A stretch of 64,000 nucleotides of DNA from Sporomusa sphaeroides DSM 2875 (GTDB lineage: Bacteria > Bacillota > Negativicutes > Sporomusales > Sporomusaceae), in assembly GCF_001941975.2 (NCBI RefSeq), contig NZ_CP146991.1, forward strand, positions 3,469,001 through 3,533,000, read 5' to 3'. The first letter of the stretch is position 1. Each line of letters begins with the position of its first letter. Of the stretch, positions 36,935-51,308 are shown piece by piece. The translations under genes were made by a program, and so were the position numbers. Below the pieces are notes generated by a model. That model searched no databases and was not told the DNA's origin. It was given only the letters and a program-made list of their open reading frames with translations.

Positions 36935-38236
36935 TTAGAAGAAGAATTCTACTTGGGCACGGAATTTTTTCAAATCAACTTTATCGAGTTCGGCGACAGC
37001 ATTGTTGGTTTCGCCATCGAAATACAGAGCCTTGAGAAGAATGTTCTTTTGTGGAACATAACCAAAGCCTACTTCTACGCCTTTGAAGCCATCGCCGCCA
37101 AAGGTATTGCTGACCATCCAAGTGGAATCAATAGTTGCAGCCTGTTCAACATTCAGATAAGTTGCCCAAGTGCCGAAGGAGCCTTTGTTTTGTTTATTAG
37201 CGCCTTTGAACCAGAGACCTGCCTGATAAGCAGTGTCTTGTTCGTCTGCATCAGATTTAGCATAAGAAGCTTGAAGAACCAAATTTTTGGCTACCTTAGT
37301 GTCGAAACCAAGTTCCCATATTTTAAGAGTATTCTCAGCTCCATCCCAGAAATTCCCACTAAGACTGTCCTTATTAGTAAGATCAGCATGATAGTAAGCA
37401 GCATTAAGGTTGGTAGCTTTCGAAGTGGCATAACCTAATCCAACAAAAGCAAGATTAACATCGGCTATCCCAGCATCAGTGATATTTCCAGCGCCATCAA
37501 GTTCTACTCCACCCATTTTGTTATCTTCTTTACCGTATATCAGAGTGGTTTTCAACTTTTTGCCAAACTCGAATTTCGCGCCGTCAACAAAGCTATCAAT
37601 AACAGTACCGTATACAGGAACTACATCAAAACGACCAAGGGTTGCCTTAGTTCCCAAAAGAGGACCTTGTACGTTAAGGATATCAAACCTATTATCCGCG
37701 TTACTGGTTCCTGATTCTCTCATATTTTCGAATGCTTCGTAGCGGATATTGGCAGTCCAATCTTCATTGATAGCACCATGAGCGTATATACGGGCACGTG
37801 CTTTTAAGTCACTGCTTTTTCCAGCAGAGTCTTTATCAGTATTATTATAGCGGAAACGAACATCGCCGTCAAACTTAACATTGCCAACTTTCTTTTCAAG
37901 GTTGTCAACGCGAACACCCAGGTTGTTCAGTTCTGCACCATATTCAGCAGCCAGAGCGTCGATGGTTTTTTGAGTTTCAGCATCGGCTTTTTCGCTGTTA
38001 GCCATAGCTTTAGCAATGATGGTAGCCATTTCATAACGGGTCATAGTTTTGTCACCTTTGTAGGTGCCGTCGCCATAACCGGATACTACGCCGGCTTGGG
38101 CAAGCTTGGAAACTGCGTCATAGGACCAGTGTTTTGCGGGAACATCAACGAACGGGTTAGCAGGTGCTGCCAGCGCGGTGCCGGCAACGCTCATTGCAAA
38201 TACTGCTGCAAGAGCCATAGCGGTTTGTCTTTTCAT
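36935..38236 (-). CDS. OmpM-type porin with N-terminal SLH domain
   Basis: 433 residues: signal peptide to AAP near residue 24, one SLH domain at about 26-80 (FVDVPAKHWSYDAVSKLAQAG, then YGDGTYKGDKTMTRYEMA), a coiled coil at about 85-118 (AELNNLGVRVDNLEKKVGNV), then a beta-barrel of alternating polar/aromatic strands ending in VEFFF. In Negativicutes such proteins tie the outer membrane to peptidoglycan polyamines through the SLH domain and form channels. Residues 1-122 are the same as in the next paralogue except position 43, while the barrels differ. It has its own promoter, a structured leader and a terminator. Confidence 0.93.
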   Translation of the reverse strand: MKRQTAMALAAVFAMSVAGTALAAPANPFVDVPAKHWSYDAVSKLAQAGVVSGYGDGTYKGDKTMTRYEMATIIAKAMANSEKADAETQKTIDALAAEYGAELNNLGVRVDNLEKKVGNVKFDGDVRFRYNNTDKDSAGKSSDLKARARIYAHGAINEDWTANIRYEAFENMRESGTSNADNRFDILNVQGPLLGTKATLGRFDVVPVYGTVIDSFVDGAKFEFGKKLKTTLIYGKEDNKMGGVELDGAGNITDAGIADVNLAFVGLGYATSKATNLNAAYYHADLTNKDSLSGNFWDGAENTLKIWELGFDTKVAKNLVLQASYAKSDADEQDTAYQAGLWFKGANKQNKGSFGTWATYLNVEQAATIDSTWMVSNTFGGDGFKGVEVGFGYVPQKNILLKALYFDGETNNAVAELDKVDLKKFRAQVEFFF

Positions 38237-38246
38237 TGTGATTGTG

Positions 38247-38315
38247 CCTCCTTAGGTTTTTGTTTTTTTGTTTTGAGCCTCCTAAGAAGTCTGATCAGAG
38301 TGTCCATGTTTCCTC
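38247..38315 (-). promoter_or_regulatory. Porin leader RNA element, copy 1
   Basis: On the transcript, a 5-bp hairpin CAGAG/CTCTG with loop GAAACATGGACA (within 38296-38317) is followed 8 nt later by CTTCTTAGG (38281-38289). That segment pairs over 9 bp (one G-U) with CCTAAGGAG, the Shine-Dalgarno region of the porin (38247-38256). An A-rich 24-nt loop separates the partners. Closing this helix would hide the ribosome site. The same arrangement occurs before the other two porins. Confidence 0.75.
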
Positions 38316-38347
38316 TGCTTTTTCTTCTCAGTCCGCTCTTACATGTT

Positions 38348-38384
38348 ATTATATTCTACAGCAGGAAGCATATTCCTGCTGTAG
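38348..38384 (-). promoter_or_regulatory. Porin promoter -10 with adjoining 12-bp palindrome
   Basis: TATAAT (38348-38353, minus strand) lies about 110 nt before the start of the first porin. Directly upstream, occupying the expected -35 zone, is CTACAGCAGGAA-gcata-TTCCTGCTGTAG (38356-38384), a perfect 12-bp inverted repeat. A recognisable -35 is lacking, so the palindrome may be an activator or repressor site. Confidence 0.6.
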
Positions 38385-38394
38385 ACGCAAATTT

Positions 38395-38433
38395 TGTAAA
38401 AAAAATTTCCCGCCACTGCTGACGGGAAATTTT
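38395..38433 (-). terminator. Terminator of second SLH porin
   Basis: AAAATTTCCCG pairs perfectly (11 bp) with CGGGAAATTTT around a 10-nt loop, followed by seven T on the minus strand, 10 nt after the stop of the porin at 38443. Confidence 0.9.
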
Positions 38434-38442
38434 CAACCGTTT

Positions 38443-39660
38443 TTAGAAGAAGAATTCTATTTCGCTTCTGAAGAATTCACCTTTATCTTTTTTATTGATT
38501 GTACCTTCCAAATCAGTATACGAGGTAGTCCACAGGATATTTTTCTTCAGCACATAATCAAAGCCGATTTCATACCCCTTGCCGCCTTCGCCATCATCCA
38601 GAATGCCGGTATCGAGAGTGGAGGAAAGCACGGTATTCTTTTCAAGATCGCGATAGTTGGCCCAAACGCCAAAGCTGCCTGCATGTTCGACATCCGACCC
38701 TTTATAGGAAAGCTGCGTGAAGAAGCCTTTATCCTGTTCATCGGTATCGCTTTTCAAGTATACGCCGCTGAGATTGACGTTAGGATTAAATTGATAATCC
38801 AAGCCTACTTCATACAGCTTCACTTTTTCACCATCCTGGGAATCAATATGGAAATACGCGCCTTTGGCGTTCAATTTATCACTGAATGCATAGCCCAGGT
38901 TGGCAATATAGAGGTCATCCTGACCGGGATCTGATGTATATTCTTGATTACCGGCAAACAGGTCTACCCTGAGCTTATTGCCAAAGCTGACCATGGCGCC
39001 TTCGACATAATCATCAAGGGCAATGCCATAAGCAGGAACAGCGTCAAAGCGACCGGCTGTAACATCGAAGACTCCCGCCTTGCCGGTCAGGTATAAGTGA
39101 TCCATTTCAGCATCGCTATCAGTGCCACTGGCTCTTACATCTTCTTCACCCGAAAATCTTCCTGTAAATGCCCAGTCTTCATTAATTTGCGCATTTACAT
39201 TCAGCCGGGCCCGCATGGTTTGGCCCATGTTGCTGCCTTTTACCCCACTATTTTTCAACTCTGCATGCTCATATCTGGCTCGAATTTCTCCGGAGAATTT
39301 AACATTACCAACTTTCTTCTCCAGGTTGTCCACACGAACACCCAAGTTATTCAGTTCTGCGCCGTATTCAGCAGCAAGAGCGTCGATAGTTTTTTGAGTT
39401 TCAGCATCGGCTTTTTCACTGTTAGCCATAGCTTTAGCGATGATGGTAGCCATTTCATAACGGGTCATGGTTTTGTCACCTTTGTAGGTGCCGTCGCCAT
39501 AACCGGATACTACACCGGCTTGGGCAAGCTTGGTAACAGCGTCATAGGACCAGTGTTTTGCAGGAACGTCAACAAACGGATTGGCAGGTGCTGCCAGCGC
39601 GGTGCCGGCAACGCTCATCGCAAATACTGCTGCAAGAGCCATAGCGGTTTGTCTTTTCAT
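38443..39660 (-). CDS. OmpM-type porin with N-terminal SLH domain, paralogue
   Basis: 405 residues with the same plan: signal peptide, SLH domain at 26-80, coiled coil to about 120, barrel ending in IEFFF. The first 122 residues match the downstream paralogue except T43 for S43, and the DNA around the start (AGGAGG to about codon 120) is nearly the same too. After GNVKF the barrels diverge sharply (SGEIRARYEH against DGDVRFRYNN). This suggests a duplicated module whose front half is kept uniform by gene conversion. It has its own leader element and terminator, so the two are separate transcripts. Confidence 0.93.
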   Translation of the reverse strand: MKRQTAMALAAVFAMSVAGTALAAPANPFVDVPAKHWSYDAVTKLAQAGVVSGYGDGTYKGDKTMTRYEMATIIAKAMANSEKADAETQKTIDALAAEYGAELNNLGVRVDNLEKKVGNVKFSGEIRARYEHAELKNSGVKGSNMGQTMRARLNVNAQINEDWAFTGRFSGEEDVRASGTDSDAEMDHLYLTGKAGVFDVTAGRFDAVPAYGIALDDYVEGAMVSFGNKLRVDLFAGNQEYTSDPGQDDLYIANLGYAFSDKLNAKGAYFHIDSQDGEKVKLYEVGLDYQFNPNVNLSGVYLKSDTDEQDKGFFTQLSYKGSDVEHAGSFGVWANYRDLEKNTVLSSTLDTGILDDGEGGKGYEIGFDYVLKKNILWTTSYTDLEGTINKKDKGEFFRSEIEFFF

Positions 39661-39670
39661 TGTGATTGTA

Positions 39671-39744
39671 CCTCCTTAGGTTTTGGAAATTTCGATTTTG
39701 AGCAGTCGCCTAAGAAGTAACCAATTGAGTGTCCAAGTTTCCTC
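39671..39744 (-). promoter_or_regulatory. Porin leader RNA element, copy 2
   Basis: Hairpin TTGAG/CTCAA with loop GAAACTTGGACA (box 39727-39744), then CTTCTTAGG at 39709-39717, able to pair with CCTAAGGAG of the ribosome site (39671-39680). The stem's outer two pairs are T-A, T-A where copy 1 has C-G, A-T, a compensating change. Upstream of the box, CCAAGAAG could alternatively pair with CTTCTTAGG and free the ribosome site. That competing fold is inference. Confidence 0.75.
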
Positions 39745-39899
39745 AAAAATTCTTCTTGGGTTTATGCTCTTATCTTAACGCCTGCTTTTATTCAGACGCA
39801 AAGAACAAGGATTTTTAACAATATAGGATTTTTTTCTTATATTTGTGAAATGTTCTACATGGGAAACATAATTCCTGCTTATTGATAAATTTTCAGTAA

Positions 39900-40316
39900 T
39901 TATAGCTGATCGGCAAAATATCGTTCAGCCAGAATCACGGCAGCGTAATCGTCCACCGGGACCGGCGGCACTTGCAAAGTGGTGGGGATGAAACGTTTCA
40001 GGCCCTGGGGCGGATTATCGCGCCAGTAACGTTTGCGGGCCTCATCGGTGGAACGGTATTCATTAACAGGAATTACAGTTAGCTTGTGGCCGTTTATTCG
40101 AATTGTATCAAGTTCTTCCCGAGCGGTGGCCGATGTGGTACTACTGCCAATAATTACAGTGGTGAGCTTATAGGTTGCAGCCAGGTTAGCTGCAGCAGCG
40201 GCTAGTCCAGGGGTTGCAATAATGGTTTTGCAGATAATGCCCTGTTCTTTATGTACTACAGCCAAGCCGCATTTTTCCCTGCCCGGGTCGATGGCTACCA
40301 CCATATCTTCCGCCAC
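39900..40316 (-). CDS. YqgF/RuvX-like RNase H fold protein
   Basis: 138 residues. MVVAIDPGREKCGLAVV supplies the first catalytic Asp of the RuvC/YqgF fold, TTVIIGSSTTSATARE the central strand, VIPVNEYRSTDEARKRYW the Glu, and PVDDYAAVILAERYF the final Asp. The family trims pre-16S rRNA or resolves junctions, but this member is a divergent stand-alone version and the true yqgF is probably elsewhere. It is housekeeping in character and lies among envelope genes without obvious link. ATG at M1 or M5. Confidence 0.8.
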   Translation of the reverse strand: MAEDMVVAIDPGREKCGLAVVHKEQGIICKTIIATPGLAAAAANLAATYKLTTVIIGSSTTSATAREELDTIRINGHKLTVIPVNEYRSTDEARKRYWRDNPPQGLKRFIPTTLQVPPVPVDDYAAVILAERYFADQL

Positions 40317-40473
40317 GTTATTGTTCGCTCCTCATTTATACGCATAAAACCAGTGAAAAGTTCCTGGTATTTAAGAAATCAGCGTCTTATTAAGAATCAT
40401 TTTCAATAAGCTAGATACATTATTGCAAACCTACCCTTTTTTGTCAAGTATTTTTTCCAGTACCCACACACCT

Positions 40474-41502
40474 TCATCTTATCGATACCTCATCCAGTGC
40501 AGTTTTTGTAGCAGATATCACCTGTTCTATGCTGATATCTGCTACAAACTTTCCTTGCTGTGGTCTTATCGCCCATTCAAGATGCCGGTAAGGGCCAATA
40601 CGGCGGTGGTCGGTTGGACCAACCAGCATAACCGTACGCTTGCCTGCCGCCAATGCCGCATGCATTAAACCGGTATCGCCGCCGATAACGATTGAGGATA
40701 GTGTCGTCAGCCCGACAGTTGTGACAAAGTCGGTTTGCCCGGCCGCTACCGGAAACTGCTCCGCAACGGCGTTCAGTTTTTCCCGATCTTCCGGTCCGCC
40801 GCCAAAGATCACTTGCAAGCCCTGAGTTCTCCAATACTCCGCTAAGATAGCATACCGCTCTAACGGCCAGGCCTTACCGGCAATGCCGTCACCGGTAAAC
40901 GGCTGAATAAATACAACCGGTTTTTGCAAGGATAGTCCCCAATTACTAAACAGCGTGTTTGCTTTTTCCTGATTTTCCGGTGGGATGATATATTCATTCT
41001 TAACTGGAAAGCAGGTTAAGCCGCCTTTTTTCAGCAGCAGCAGATTTTGGTCAATCCGATGCAGGTCAGGCAAATCGCTGACGGAAGAAGCCAGCGAAGA
41101 AAGTCTGACGGCTGTATTAGTATACAACCGCTCGCGCAGCGTATTGCTGGATTTAATCGAGCCCCAGCGATGCTTTATGCCGCTCAGCCACAGTAAAACC
41201 GCATTGCCGCTATTGCCGGAAAAATCTATTGCCAATTGAAATTTACTATTTTTTACTTTATCTAGTATGTCGTTGCCTGCTTTCCAAAGCTTTAAAACAT
41301 TTTCACTTTTATTTTGAGTAACCCAAACCTCGTCAAGACCGGGAAATCCTTTTAAAACCTGAGCATAGTTTTCCTTCACCAAAAAACTGATTTTGCTGTT
41401 CGGAAAATTAGCCCGCAACAGGTAATACGCAGGAAGAGTAAAAATAATATCCCCGATAGCGCCTCGCCGGATCATCAGGATGCTCTCTATCTGATCGTGC
41501 AC
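40474..41502 (-). CDS. GT9 heptosyltransferase-family protein
   Basis: 342 residues from GTG 41502, chosen because GAGGAGGA sits 8 nt upstream. The longer frame from 41565 would start only about 10 nt after the likely transcription start. ILMIRRGAIGDIIFTLPAYYLL, QLAIDFSGNSGNAVLLWLSG, FIQPFTGDGIAGKAWPLERY, FGGGPEDREKLNA and VIGGDTGLMHAALAAGKR with VGPTDHRRIGPY are GT9 blocks. A third heptosyltransferase-like enzyme for the LPS core. It lacks the Cys cluster of the other two. It has its own promoter. Confidence 0.9.
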   Translation of the reverse strand: MHDQIESILMIRRGAIGDIIFTLPAYYLLRANFPNSKISFLVKENYAQVLKGFPGLDEVWVTQNKSENVLKLWKAGNDILDKVKNSKFQLAIDFSGNSGNAVLLWLSGIKHRWGSIKSSNTLRERLYTNTAVRLSSLASSVSDLPDLHRIDQNLLLLKKGGLTCFPVKNEYIIPPENQEKANTLFSNWGLSLQKPVVFIQPFTGDGIAGKAWPLERYAILAEYWRTQGLQVIFGGGPEDREKLNAVAEQFPVAAGQTDFVTTVGLTTLSSIVIGGDTGLMHAALAAGKRTVMLVGPTDHRRIGPYRHLEWAIRPQQGKFVADISIEQVISATKTALDEVSIR

Positions 41503-41581
41503 TAAACAAGTCCTCCTCTTTGTTAAAAATGGAACTTCTATTGACGTTGATTCGGGCTGGACCATAATTCAAAGGTATTTT

Positions 41582-41610
41582 ATCATATCATGACAGAAGG
41601 GAGCAACCAA
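41582..41610 (-). promoter_or_regulatory. Sigma-A-type promoter of the GT9 gene
   Basis: TTGGTT (41605-41610), 17-nt spacer, TATGAT (41582-41587) on the minus strand. Start of transcription would be near 41575, some 70 nt before the GTG start at 41502. Confidence 0.65.
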
Positions 41611-41672
41611 ATGCAATATTATGTACGTTCGAATAAGTAGAAATACCTAGCGAGTAACGTAGCATAGCATAC

Positions 41673-41699
41673 AAAAAGGACGCCCGAAGGCGTCCTTAA
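41673..41699 (-). terminator. Terminator of third SLH porin
   Basis: AAGGACGCC pairs with GGCGTCCTT around a 4-nt loop, with a T5 tail on the minus strand, 18 nt past the porin stop at 41717. Confidence 0.93.
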
Positions 41700-41716
41700 T
41701 GCTGCGGAATGCATTA

Positions 41717-42868
41717 TTAGAATTTAACGTTGATGGCAGCCTGAGTACGAGCACCACCGTCGATTTCAGTACCGTCTTGTTTTTCGAAGTCTTGGTATTT
41801 AAGGTTCAAAGTAGTGTTTTTAGCAAGTGCGCGGTCATATCTTACTTCAAGACCTTTGTAACCGTCTTCGTCTTTGAGGGTCTGGATATCATTGTGCATA
41901 CCGGAGTATGCGGAGTTAGCGCCGTCTTCTACGTCACGGTACAGGGCAGTCAGGCCAAGCTTGTTGAATTTCAGGCCATAAGCGGCAGCATTGGCGTCAG
42001 TGTTGCCTTGGTCAACATTGTAGAATTCGCCAAGGGCAGTTACGCTGTTGGTCAGCTTAATGCCTACGTTAGCGCCATACACATCTACATCATTGGTTGC
42101 TGTGTCATATTTTACATAGTCGGCAGTAATATCAGCTGCGCCCAGTTTCATACCGTATTCAGCACCATATACTTCGTTGCTGTCTTTCAAATGACCGGCA
42201 AACAGTTTCAGGTTACCGATTTCGGAAGCAATACCAGTCATCGCAGCGTCATGCAGGAAGCCATTGCCAAGTACCAGGTCCTGACGGCCAATGGTGTTAG
42301 TCAGGCCAAGAGCGTCGAAGCTTACATTGGCGGTGTCAAGTTTGATACCGGTTTTGGTAGTGAAGTCGTCGTTATAGTTCATGTTGTCGCTAGTCAGACG
42401 GGCATTGAATTTCAGGTTGTCGTTGATTTTGCCGTCAAAGCTTACACGGGCACGGAAATCAGTGTTGTCATAGCTGTCGCTGGCGCCATAACGTACACGA
42501 GCGTCACCGGAAATTTTAACCATGTTGTCAACTTTTTTGTCAATAGCTTCTACTTTGATACCCATGCTGTTCAGTTCGGTAGCAAATTCTTTGGACAGTT
42601 GATCCACAGTTTCTTTTTGGTCGCTGTTGAGGTCCTTTTGCATAGCAGCAGCAACAATGGAAGCCATTTCGTAACGGCTGACGGTTTTGTCACCTTTGAA
42701 GGTACCATCTTCATAGCCTGTTACCACACCGGCTTGCGCCAATTTGTTTACTGCATCATAAGCCCAGTGTTTTGCAGGAACATCGGAGAAGGGGTTAGCG
42801 AAAGCAGGAACAGCGAAGGCTACGGTGAGAGCGCTGGTTACAGCTAGTTTAAGAAGTCTTTTGTTCAT
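41717..42868 (-). CDS. OmpM-type porin with N-terminal SLH domain, third copy
   Basis: 383 residues. Signal peptide to AFA near 24, SLH domain (FSDVPAKHWAYDAVNKLAQAGVV, YEDGTFKGDKTVSRYEMASIV), coiled coil (ELNSMGIKVEAIDKKVDNMV), then a barrel opening ISGDARVRYGASDSYDNTD. It has the same architecture as the two porins at 36935 and 38443 but is clearly older in divergence (about two thirds similar in the SLH part). The ribosome site is GGGGGA rather than AGGAGG, yet the leader element is retained with a matching change. Promoter at 43042-43070. Confidence 0.93.
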   Translation of the reverse strand: MNKRLLKLAVTSALTVAFAVPAFANPFSDVPAKHWAYDAVNKLAQAGVVTGYEDGTFKGDKTVSRYEMASIVAAAMQKDLNSDQKETVDQLSKEFATELNSMGIKVEAIDKKVDNMVKISGDARVRYGASDSYDNTDFRARVSFDGKINDNLKFNARLTSDNMNYNDDFTTKTGIKLDTANVSFDALGLTNTIGRQDLVLGNGFLHDAAMTGIASEIGNLKLFAGHLKDSNEVYGAEYGMKLGAADITADYVKYDTATNDVDVYGANVGIKLTNSVTALGEFYNVDQGNTDANAAAYGLKFNKLGLTALYRDVEDGANSAYSGMHNDIQTLKDEDGYKGLEVRYDRALAKNTTLNLKYQDFEKQDGTEIDGGARTQAAINVKF

Positions 42869-48750: not shown

Positions 48751-49296
48751 CTACTGTTCCAGGCTGAACCTGTCTTTGCTCAGATATTCGGCAATTATCC
48801 TGTCCCATTTTCCCTGCGCCTTGAGAATATGCTCAATAATCTCACGGACAGCACCATCGCCGCCCGGCCGGCCGGAAATGTATCTGGCCACTGCTTTCAC
48901 TTCGGCCACGGCATTGGCCACCGCGCAGGGAAAGCCAATCTGCACCATGACAGGCAGGTCATTGATGTCATCGCCCACATAGGCTATCTGCTCCGGGGTC
49001 AGGGCATGCTTTTTTATAAGCTCCTGCATGGCCGTAACTTTATCGGCGGCGCCTTGATGGATGTCGCCGATGTTGAGCTCGGTGCCGCGGCGGCGTACGA
49101 TTTCACTGTTACGTCCGGTGATGATGGCCGTCTTTAAGCCGGCCTTGTGCGCCAGTGATATTCCCATACCGTCCTGACAATGGAACGCCTTTAGCGCCTC
49201 CCCTTCCTGGCCGAAGATAATATGGCCGCCGGTCAGCACTCCATCCACATCAAAAATGATAAGCTTAACCTGGGCAGCATAGGGGACACTATTCAT
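48751..49296 (-). CDS. kdsC: 3-deoxy-D-manno-octulosonate 8-phosphate phosphatase
   Basis: 181-residue HAD phosphatase of the KdsC type: LIIFDVDGVLTGGHI with the DxDx(T/V) nucleophile pair, FHCQDGMGISLAHKAGLKTAIITGR, and AYVGDDINDLPVM as the last motif. It removes phosphate from Kdo-8-P. It shares a base with the kdsD stop, in order kdsA-kdsD-kdsC. Confidence 0.96.
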   Translation of the reverse strand: MNSVPYAAQVKLIIFDVDGVLTGGHIIFGQEGEALKAFHCQDGMGISLAHKAGLKTAIITGRNSEIVRRRGTELNIGDIHQGAADKVTAMQELIKKHALTPEQIAYVGDDINDLPVMVQIGFPCAVANAVAEVKAVARYISGRPGGDGAVREIIEHILKAQGKWDRIIAEYLSKDRFSLEQ

Positions 49297-50270
49297 TATA
49301 CCACTCCTTGACGTAATAAGTCAGTAAGGTGAATGATACCAATTGCACGAAATTCACTGTCAACTACTGGCAGCACGGTAATGGGGCGCGGTTTGTTTTT
49401 TTCCATAAAATTAAGAGCCTGGGCTGCCAGCCTGTCTTTAGTAATGGTGCGGGGCTCTCTGGTCATTAGCCCGGCTACCGGTTTATCCAGGAAATCATGT
49501 CCTTTTTCCAGACTGCGGCGAATGTCGCCATCAGTTAACAATCCCACAAGTTTCATGCTCGCCAGTGACTCAACTACTAAAACAGCGCCAAGTCCCTGGG
49601 CGGTAATGGAAAATAATGCTTCTTTTACCGTCTTGTCCGGTGTTACCGCCGGCAAATCACTGCCGCCATGCATGACATTTTCTACGGTAAGCAGCAGCTT
49701 GCGTCCCAAGGCACCGCCAGGGTGGTAGAGGGCAAAGTCCTCCGGGGTGAAGTTACGGGCCGATAATAACGCAATCGCCAGGGCGTCGCCCATGGCCAGG
49801 GTGGCGGTAGTGCTGGCAGTAGGGGCTAACCCGAGCGGGCAGGCTTCTTTGGCTACCGCCACATCAAGAAAAACATCTGCATTCTGTGCCAGGGTGGATT
49901 TGGCGCGGCCTGTCATGGCAATAATCGGCGTACCAATGCGTTTAAGGGTTGGCAGCAGGCCAATCACTTCATTGGTTTCACCGCTGTTGGAAATAGCCAG
50001 GACAATATCATGAGCGGTAACCATCCCCAGGTCGCCATGAATGCCTTCGGCCGGATGAAGAAAAAAGGCCGGCGTACCGGTGCTGGCCAGGGTTGCAGCT
50101 ATCTTTTTGCCAATAATACCGGATTTCCCCATACCGCTGACAACCACCCGGCCCGAGCAATTTATAATCATTCTCATTGCAATGGTAAATTGTTCATTGA
50201 TCCGGGGAATTAAGGCACGAATGGCTTCCGCCTCCAGCTCTAAACAAGCACGGGCATGTTCAATAGGCAT
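49296..50270 (-). CDS. kdsD: D-arabinose 5-phosphate isomerase
   Basis: 324 residues from ATG 50270 (AAGGAGG upstream; frame extends to 50303 but into the palindromic element). An SIS domain (VVVSGMGKSGIIGKKIAATLAS, PAEGIHGDLGM, SNSGETNEVI) is followed by two CBS domains (VVESLASMKLVGLLTDGDIRRSL; PRPITVLPVVDSEFRAIGII, both cited only as blocks). It converts ribulose-5-P to arabinose-5-P, the first Kdo-specific step. Confidence 0.95.
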   Translation of the reverse strand: MPIEHARACLELEAEAIRALIPRINEQFTIAMRMIINCSGRVVVSGMGKSGIIGKKIAATLASTGTPAFFLHPAEGIHGDLGMVTAHDIVLAISNSGETNEVIGLLPTLKRIGTPIIAMTGRAKSTLAQNADVFLDVAVAKEACPLGLAPTASTTATLAMGDALAIALLSARNFTPEDFALYHPGGALGRKLLLTVENVMHGGSDLPAVTPDKTVKEALFSITAQGLGAVLVVESLASMKLVGLLTDGDIRRSLEKGHDFLDKPVAGLMTREPRTITKDRLAAQALNFMEKNKPRPITVLPVVDSEFRAIGIIHLTDLLRQGVV

Positions 50271-50287
50271 TGTAATTTCCTCCTTAA

Positions 50288-50481
50288 AACACGGGATTGA
50301 CACCTGGTGCTGCAGCCGGTGATGTTATGCAGTATATCACCGGCACTTTTGCCGCCATGCTTTGTTGTCGTCGCCTTACATATGTCCGATATGCGCGGCT
50401 CCTCCGCCGCGCCTGGCGACAAAACTGCTCGGAGCTATACTGCATAACATCACCGGCTGCAGCACTTGGCAATCCCGTGTT
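50288..50481. repeat. About 195-bp palindromic element between kdsD and kdsA
   Basis: Outer arms AACACGGGATTG (50288-50299) and CAATCCCGTGTT (50470-50481) are perfect complements, as are 29-bp inner arms at 50307-50335 and 50437-50465. The centre includes a further stem, GCGCGG/CCGCGC. It exactly fills the gap between the kdsA stop and the kdsD ribosome site. It could fold into one long hairpin in DNA or mRNA. It looks like a non-autonomous mobile palindrome, with no coding potential that I trust. Confidence 0.9.
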
Positions 50482-50483
50482 CC

Positions 50484-51308
50484 TTACTTATGTTTTCTTA
50501 CTGCATCATCGATGGCGATTACATCCTGCAGCAGTGCTTCCAATTTGTCGACATAGAGCATATTGGCGGCATCTGACTTGCCTTCCGGCGGATTGTCATG
50601 AACTTCCATGAACAGCATGTCAACCCCGGCAGCAACTGCCGCTCTGGTCAGGTAGGGCACAAATTCGCGTTGTCCGCTGGAACTGGTGCCGGCGCCGCCG
50701 GGCAGCTGGACACTGTGGGTGGCATCAAATACCACCGGATAACCCAGGGACCGCATAATCGGCAGAGAGCGGAAATCCACTACCAGATTATTATAGCCGA
50801 AGGTAGCGCCCCGTTCTGTCAGCAAAATATTGCGATTGCCGGCTTCTTCCAGCTTGGCAATGACATTTTTCATATCAAGCGGTGCCAGAAACTGGCCCTT
50901 TTTTACATTAACGGCTTTACCGGTGCGGCCCGCCTCATATACCAGGTCGGTCTGACGGCAGAGGAATGCCGGTATCTGGAGAATATCCAGAACTTCGGCT
51001 GCGGCTTCAATCTGGGTGACACAATGAATATCACTGACCACCGGCACTTGCAGCTCTTTTTTAATATGCGCCAGGATGCTCAGGCCTTCTTTCAGACCGG
51101 GACCGCGGAAAGAATTATAGGAAGAACGGTTTGCTTTATCATAGGACGCTTTAAAAATATAAGGAATCTGCAAGCGGCCGGCGATTTCCTTGATAGACCG
51201 GCCGATGGCCAGGGTGCGTTCAGGATCTTCGATAACACAGGGTCCGGCAATCAGCACAATAGGGTTCTGTCCGCCAACTGTGATGTTTTGAATTTGTACG
51301 GTATGCAT
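50484..51308 (-). CDS. kdsA: 3-deoxy-8-phosphooctulonate synthase
   Basis: 274 residues. VLIAGPCVIEDPERTLAIG, YIFKASYDKANRSSYNSFRG, SDIHCVTQIEAAAEVLDILQ, and FDATHSVQLPGGAG are the KdsA blocks for PEP and arabinose-5-P binding. It condenses these to Kdo-8-P. ATHSVQ and the Cys in GPCVIE suggest the metal-dependent class, though this needs an alignment. It is the most upstream of kdsA-kdsD-kdsC, 21 nt after kdsB. Confidence 0.96.
   Translation of the reverse strand: MHTVQIQNITVGGQNPIVLIAGPCVIEDPERTLAIGRSIKEIAGRLQIPYIFKASYDKANRSSYNSFRGPGLKEGLSILAHIKKELQVPVVSDIHCVTQIEAAAEVLDILQIPAFLCRQTDLVYEAGRTGKAVNVKKGQFLAPLDMKNVIAKLEEAGNRNILLTERGATFGYNNLVVDFRSLPIMRSLGYPVVFDATHSVQLPGGAGTSSSGQREFVPYLTRAAVAAGVDMLFMEVHDNPPEGKSDAANMLYVDKLEALLQDVIAIDDAVRKHK

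Follow-up and report, generated by a model that had tools for sequence, protein, structure and literature searches.

A palindromic element between kdsA and kdsD of Sporomusa sphaeroides is probably an IS630-moved MITE that carries a conserved module structured on one strand

The gap between kdsA and kdsD in Sporomusa sphaeroides DSM 2875 measures 213 nt and is largely taken up by a long palindrome, which raises the question of what kind of sequence this is and what, if anything, it may be doing there. The window analysed was a stretch of 64,000 nucleotides (contig NZ_CP146991.1, positions 3,469,001 to 3,533,000), and all features at this locus are read on the minus strand. kdsA (50484..51308) lies upstream of the element and kdsD (49296..50270) downstream; the open reading frame of the latter is listed from an upstream GTG, and its start was set at the ATG (50270-50268) behind the ribosome site. 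Pfam domains were consistent with the names given to genes in this region: DAHP_synth_1 for kdsA, SIS and CBS for kdsD, HAD-like hydrolase for kdsC, CTP_transf_3 for kdsB and Lip_A_acyltrans for lpxL.

A first-pass annotation, made from the letters alone, had described the gap as filled by a palindrome with two nested sets of perfect arms. The palindrome is present and spans 194 nt (50288-50481), with a minus-strand folding energy of -129.6 kcal/mol compared to -65.6 kcal/mol (sd 4.3) for shuffled sequence (z -14.8; none of 200 dinucleotide shuffles folded as well). Its outer arms (50288-50299 and 50470-50481) are perfect over 12 bp, as annotated. The inner arms, of which 50430..50465 is the 5' arm and 50307..50342 the 3' arm as read on the minus strand, are complementary at 34 of 36 positions and have a longest perfect run of 30 bp instead of the 29 bp given. 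One edge lies just beyond the kdsD ribosome site, where the annotation had placed it, and the other stands 2 bases, not 3, before the kdsA stop triplet (50484-50486).

Separate origins are probable for the outer and the inner arms. Other copies show that a 159-bp segment (50307..50465, beginning with G-T, ending with A-C and bearing what we call family A arms) has ends of its own, so the outer 12-bp arms were assigned to the surrounding DNA and probably derive from an older small hairpin. The element probably inserted into the loop of that hairpin, which would explain the nested appearance. The stem CGGGATTG/CAATCCCG, as in the outer arm, was found at four further places in the genome, where the hairpins are flanked by A and T runs and have a terminator-like look. 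The 159-bp element is without a transposase gene and is crossed merely by mechanical short open reading frames. Judging by the position of TA in other copies, its target duplications would have decayed to AA at the left end (50466..50467) and to CA at the right end (50305..50306), so that the element ends here read CAAG and CCAG. Between the arms lies a conserved structured core of 84 nt (50343..50426), matched by our covariance model R1 with 101.4 bits (cmsearch, E = 2.1e-25), as expected for one of the 52 sequences used to build the model; it was the sole R1 match within the window up to E 5. Elsewhere in the window, direct repeats of 159-300 nt in two or three copies, 77-94% identical, were seen at 37836-42799.

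Searching the whole genome (G000; other G numbers denote comparison genomes and L numbers extracted loci) with the window element produced 37 matches, which on recounting represented 27 distinct core-bearing copies. The remaining matches were either arms alone or one palindrome read a second time, and two were short palindromes lacking the core (L106, L107). kdsA was located in seven congeners; their kdsA-kdsD gap was 12-28 nt long and lacked the element in every case, and the covariance model detected no core at these seven loci; an eighth congener (G002) yielded just a distant kdsA paralogue and was left out of this count. Sites downstream of lspA and downstream of rimO, both occupied in G000, were each empty in 8 of 8 congeners. 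The comparison of filled and empty sites at lspA, the sole alignable one, fits duplication of a TA dinucleotide, yet the empty sites were 1 nt longer than predicted in all eight congeners. The search for dispersed copies and empty sites that the first-pass annotation had proposed thus favoured its suggestion of a non-autonomous mobile element, as did the TA ends and IS630-like terminal repeats described below, and mobility is well supported on this comparative evidence. Two observations were made at related loci. In G006, the covariance model gave a weak match to the core (32.9 bits, over 148 nt) upstream of lspA (L135:2111-2258), on the opposite side from the G000 copy. By eye, the kdsA-kdsD junction of other genera (L039, L040, L042, L045, L047, L054) contained unrelated repeat-like sequences, which gives it the look of a place where insertions are tolerated.

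Both ends could be placed in 123 of 140 distinct copies from many genomes, which begin with G-T, end with A-C and have TA on either side, usually within CTAG. Placement rewarded TAGT and ACTA, and the bases further out, which fell outside this rule, form the independent part of the pattern: C preceded the left TA in 98 and G followed the right TA in 78 of the 123 copies. Several copies adjoin the CTAG end of another copy (e.g. L105, L232, L234). In six loci (L008, L013, L015, L019, L020, L080) the reading frame upstream terminates at the TAG contained in the CTAG end of the element.

Ends of this kind resemble those of the IS630 family, whose transposases carry a DDE_3 domain. Genes with this domain gave two matches in G000 and were present in 3 of 11 other genomes searched. 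Recognisable CTAGT ends were found at 5 of 14 DDE_3 loci (L137, L141 and L144-L146) and were of three types: CTAGTACTCCAYCAA at L137, CTAGTGACTYGCCAAAGTT at L141 and CTAGTGTAGTGACAT / CTAGTGTATCGACAC at L144-L146. The IS630-type elements of Sporomusaceae (L137, L141, L144) share with the core-bearing copies CTAGT...ACTAG ends and an inner sequence resembling the arms, but differ from them in carrying a DDE_3 transposase, and no DDE_3 locus contained a core match in a covariance model search. When ends were paired with arms (L137 with L267, L141 with L095 and L227, L144 with L164 and L175), 13-19 of 21 inner positions were identical, compared to shuffled means of 5.0-6.3; these pairs were picked after viewing, and the partners of L137 and L144 were chosen by eye before scoring and come from other organisms, the source of L267 and of L164 and L175 being a metagenomic viral contig and another class. 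In an unselected comparison with the arms in hand, L141 alone exceeded the shuffled maximum (23 of 28 positions against 18), while L137 and L144 did not. L141 is located in G006, a genome that also has copies of the matching arm family (L212, L222, L234, L245). Family A arms, those of the window copy, were not found among the 14 DDE_3 loci. Taken at sequence level, the element is probably a MITE moved by IS630-family transposases, the mover being deduced from its ends.

Among described systems, the repeat unit of pneumococcus (RUP) is one of the closest: it is likewise a short gene-less repeat with a TA target and with ends similar to those of an IS630-family element, and IS630-Spn1 has been proposed as its mover (in the portions of PMC2229807 and PMC3049150 available to us). 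RUP is reported there as 107 bp long in Streptococcus pneumoniae, whereas the present element is ~160 bp long, has several arm families around one structured core and is found in hosts across the phylum. Correia or NEMIS elements of Neisseria are also MITEs with TA termini, target duplications, a transcribed hairpin and size variants, but belong to a different host, and the available part of PMC2229807 describes no conserved core across families with different ends. ERIC or IRU sequences of enterobacteria share the TA termini, and an orientation-dependent effect on messages has been reported for them; they are, however, tabulated at 127 bp with 7-bp terminal repeats, unlike the 30-bp perfect arm run and IS630-like ends seen here (partial text of PMC2229807 and PMC3049150). 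As far as these accounts go, the element works like RUP and Correia elements but is not filed as RUP, being set apart by its shared core across different ends.

The core itself, as read from the alignment, is a real module and the notable part of the element; being conserved and strand-specific, it could not be recognised from the single sequence on which the first-pass annotation was based. Fifty-two copies could be aligned without gaps over 84 columns with a mean column identity of 87%; 13 of 65 copies, with inserted, truncated, shifted or most diverged cores, were left out. Under the RNAalifold structure 97.0% of cells were paired, compared to 88.3% after shuffling, and 92 two-sided cells were counted against 31.7 (none of 500 shuffles was as high), while structures slid along the same alignment paired just 32.8-48.3%. 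At pair 29-53 of the inner helix, C-G, G-C, U-A and A-U all occur. Tandem G-A mismatches between invariant G-C pairs (columns 23/59 and 24/58; 26/56 and 27/55) were present in 48-51 of the 52 copies, and AGGCG...CAAC around the tandem G-A loop was the most constant part of the core across the phylum. The same core is common to copies with different arm families, its columns remaining conserved where the arms diverge. A core variant with an extra ~80-nt domain on the 3' side, which has inverted repeats of its own, was seen in L022, L023, L024 and L025 (around 1501-1650).

With strict filters, and with a covariance model whose E-values are rough, the core was matched in 66 of 300 genomes and 32 of 97 genera of the class, and in 18 of 398 genomes of a phylum sample, 14 of these 18 being outside the class. 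Within Sporomusa, 4 of 9 genomes were without a core match. Rfam 15 gave no match in the window at 49800-51000 up to E 5 and none overlapping the core in eight diverse loci up to E 1, and a known RNA family was rejected as the identity of the core. One weak match to Chloroflexi-1 RNA (L008:2773-2848, E 0.2, below gathering) was located outside the element. In the open-access literature searched, no listed title or abstract described the element, and none was about it among the papers listed for a sequence fragment. A phage origin was not indicated by annotated phages, in which the window element had no match; a single plasmid match, in Sporomusa termitida, covered 26% of the query. A pattern scan of viral contigs returned 8 loci, of which 5 were such palindromes by eye and 3 seemed to be chance matches in coding sequence (two identical in the part read).

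The core strand and its complement were not equivalent. Arm mismatches outside the core, read on the core strand, were G-T in 331 and A-C in 87 cases across 125 copies whose ends were placed without wobble credit. Per copy, G-T was ahead in 96, equal in 20 and behind in 9. This count superseded an earlier one (175:30), for which 54 of 65 copies had been used and their ends trimmed according to how the core strand folds. The ratio of G-T to A-C was 109:23 for copies whose core is codirectional with both flanking genes, 86:35 for those whose core opposes both, and 60:15 in 23 arm-cluster representatives. Furthermore, in 64 of 65 copies the core strand gave the better fold of the two strands, a comparison in which trimming on the core-strand fold favours that strand somewhat. 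Within seven clusters with four or more members (112 of 139 copies), changes on both sides of paired positions preserved the pair in 465 cases and broke it in 99, and single changes gave G-U 271 times against A-C 125 times; both tallies count sequences, not independent events, and since related copies are not independent, the pair counts overstate the number of events.

An orthologous copy in two Sporomusa species (L063 and L075) allowed a direct comparison. Ten pairs differ between the two: five are compensated doubles, two are single changes that still pair and three are broken. Over the inner 46 nt of the core the two copies show no difference, whereas their flanks are 79-85% identical. The gene downstream, an aminotransferase gene that by its protein sequence resembles dapL, adjoins a copy that has possibly been domesticated.

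Because double-stranded DNA is blind to the difference between G-T and A-C, the asymmetry points to selection, or a strand-specific process, acting on a single strand. As the excess of G-T was observed in both gene orientations, selection on a single strand is suggested, with RNA more likely than ssDNA; strand-biased deamination was disfavoured as its source on the same ground. Palindrome correction at the DNA level could give rise to compensatory changes, but not to the excess of G-T over A-C.

From the computed dispersal, empty sites, ends, covariation, strand asymmetry and spread, we arrived at the following reading. An IS630-family transposase would recognise the element ends, the two arms representing its long terminal repeats, and would move it, probably by cut-and-paste, into TA, mostly within CTAG. 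The centre would be the 84-nt module, adopting a specific structure on one strand only, with a covarying stem, tandem G-A internal loops and a short, nearly invariant hairpin. That elements with different arms carry the same module in hosts throughout the phylum makes it probable that the module is under selection in its own right. Its active form is most likely an RNA, which would be produced each time transcription of an inserted copy follows the core strand. We place the probability that the element is an IS630-moved MITE carrying a conserved module with a structured single strand, most likely RNA, at roughly 70%; the transposase, the preference for RNA over ssDNA and any effect on kdsD are what we infer within it. 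A further step, which we advance tentatively and with the odds leaning against it, is that the core represents an RNA (or folded ssDNA) module found throughout the phylum, which differently ended IS630-moved elements keep because it is helpful for their spread or tolerance, for instance through a host factor that engages the tandem G-A helix.

The kdsA-kdsD copy may also be read as a hairpin kept at this place to regulate the kds-lpx operon, whether by attenuation, as a site of RNase processing or by stabilising the message; the first-pass annotation had likewise suggested that it could damp or tune expression of kdsD-kdsC-lpxL. Since mRNA and core strand coincide here, the operon message is expected to contain the hairpin after the kdsA stop and ahead of the kdsD ribosome site, and it is this very stable fold that lies in the mRNA sense; effects on messages have been reported for ERIC and Correia elements (PMC2229807 and PMC3049150, as far as the available text goes). 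On the other hand, the short gaps of the seven congeners mark the insertion as lineage-specific and dispensable for them. An intrinsic terminator was rejected, since a scan of 50150-50650, allowing loops of 3-8 only, found none; the outer stem is followed on the minus strand by just TTTT. Copies elsewhere also occur in both orientations: among 146 copies in several genomes, with flanking genes taken from our own ORF calls without annotation, the core pointed the same way as both neighbours in 49 cases and opposite to both in 45. Any role in host mRNA can therefore not be a general one, and a general mRNA-sense role was rejected. A sense bias suggested by G000 alone (21 of 24 downstream genes) was gone once other genomes were added. 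Orientation relative to flanking genes varied by genome (20 with and 2 against in G000 and G006, 5 and 18 in G004, G014 and G035; Fisher p = 3e-6, groups chosen after seeing the data). We consider maintenance as an operon regulator doubtful.

Less probable still is that the core works as ssDNA, with a hairpin extruded during replication or transfer and a protein binding the folded DNA, as HUH transposases and integron integrases do with their sites. DNA hairpins also tolerate G-T and tandem G-A pairs, and the asymmetry is there whichever way the flanking genes point, both of which this unlikely alternative would accommodate. Nevertheless, the ends and TA targets resemble IS630, a double-strand cut-and-paste family, and none of the three Y1 transposase genes found in G000 has a copy beside it. 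Nor was there a strong replication-strand bias: 17 of 27 G000 copies, counted by hand, were on the presumed leading strand, with the contig start, where a dnaA-like frame is followed by a dnaN-like one, taken as the presumed origin and the midpoint as the terminus.

An ordinary neutral MITE, its core a functionless relic of a common ancestor, is disfavoured and in our view quite improbable. Core-less arm palindromes do exist (L106 and L107 again), some diverged copies have part of the core, its G-A helix, replaced (L166, L167, L177), and bacterial MITEs usually form hairpins with a high degree of base pairing (PMC2229807, in the part available). A relic would, however, fit poorly with core columns that stay conserved while arms diverge, with the covariation and one-strand wobble preference, or with the identity of the inner core between L063 and L075 amid diverged flanks. 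Finally, the first-pass suggestion of a REP-like unit, i.e. a REP/BIME-type element spread by a Y1 (RAYT) transposase, is scarcely credible: G000 does have three Y1_Tnp genes (open frames of 249-266 aa), but their 400-bp flanks contain no such palindrome by eye, the 3-kb loci around them have no core match, and the element is long and ends in TA/CTAG. One Y1 transposase gene (L111) is flanked on either side by GGGACAAGG/CCTTGTCCC repeats, which belong to another repeat family.

Returning to the reading of an IS630-moved MITE with a module structured on one strand, its meaning lies in how such elements are viewed. The usual view of bacterial MITEs is that of deleted transposons in which the ends are the working parts. 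Here, a single structured core has been kept in numerous genera and in several families of arms, together with covariation and a strong preference for wobble on one strand. If the proposal that the core helps differently ended elements is true, bacterial MITEs would be carriers of a shared structured nucleic-acid part and not mere deleted transposons, a logic like that of the conserved RNA body of eukaryotic SINEs. Should the core work as RNA, its place within repeats would have kept a widespread structured RNA from being noticed; should folded DNA be its working form, the movement of IS630-type MITEs would include a single-strand step that had not been suspected. In either case, the question can be tested with the covariance model.
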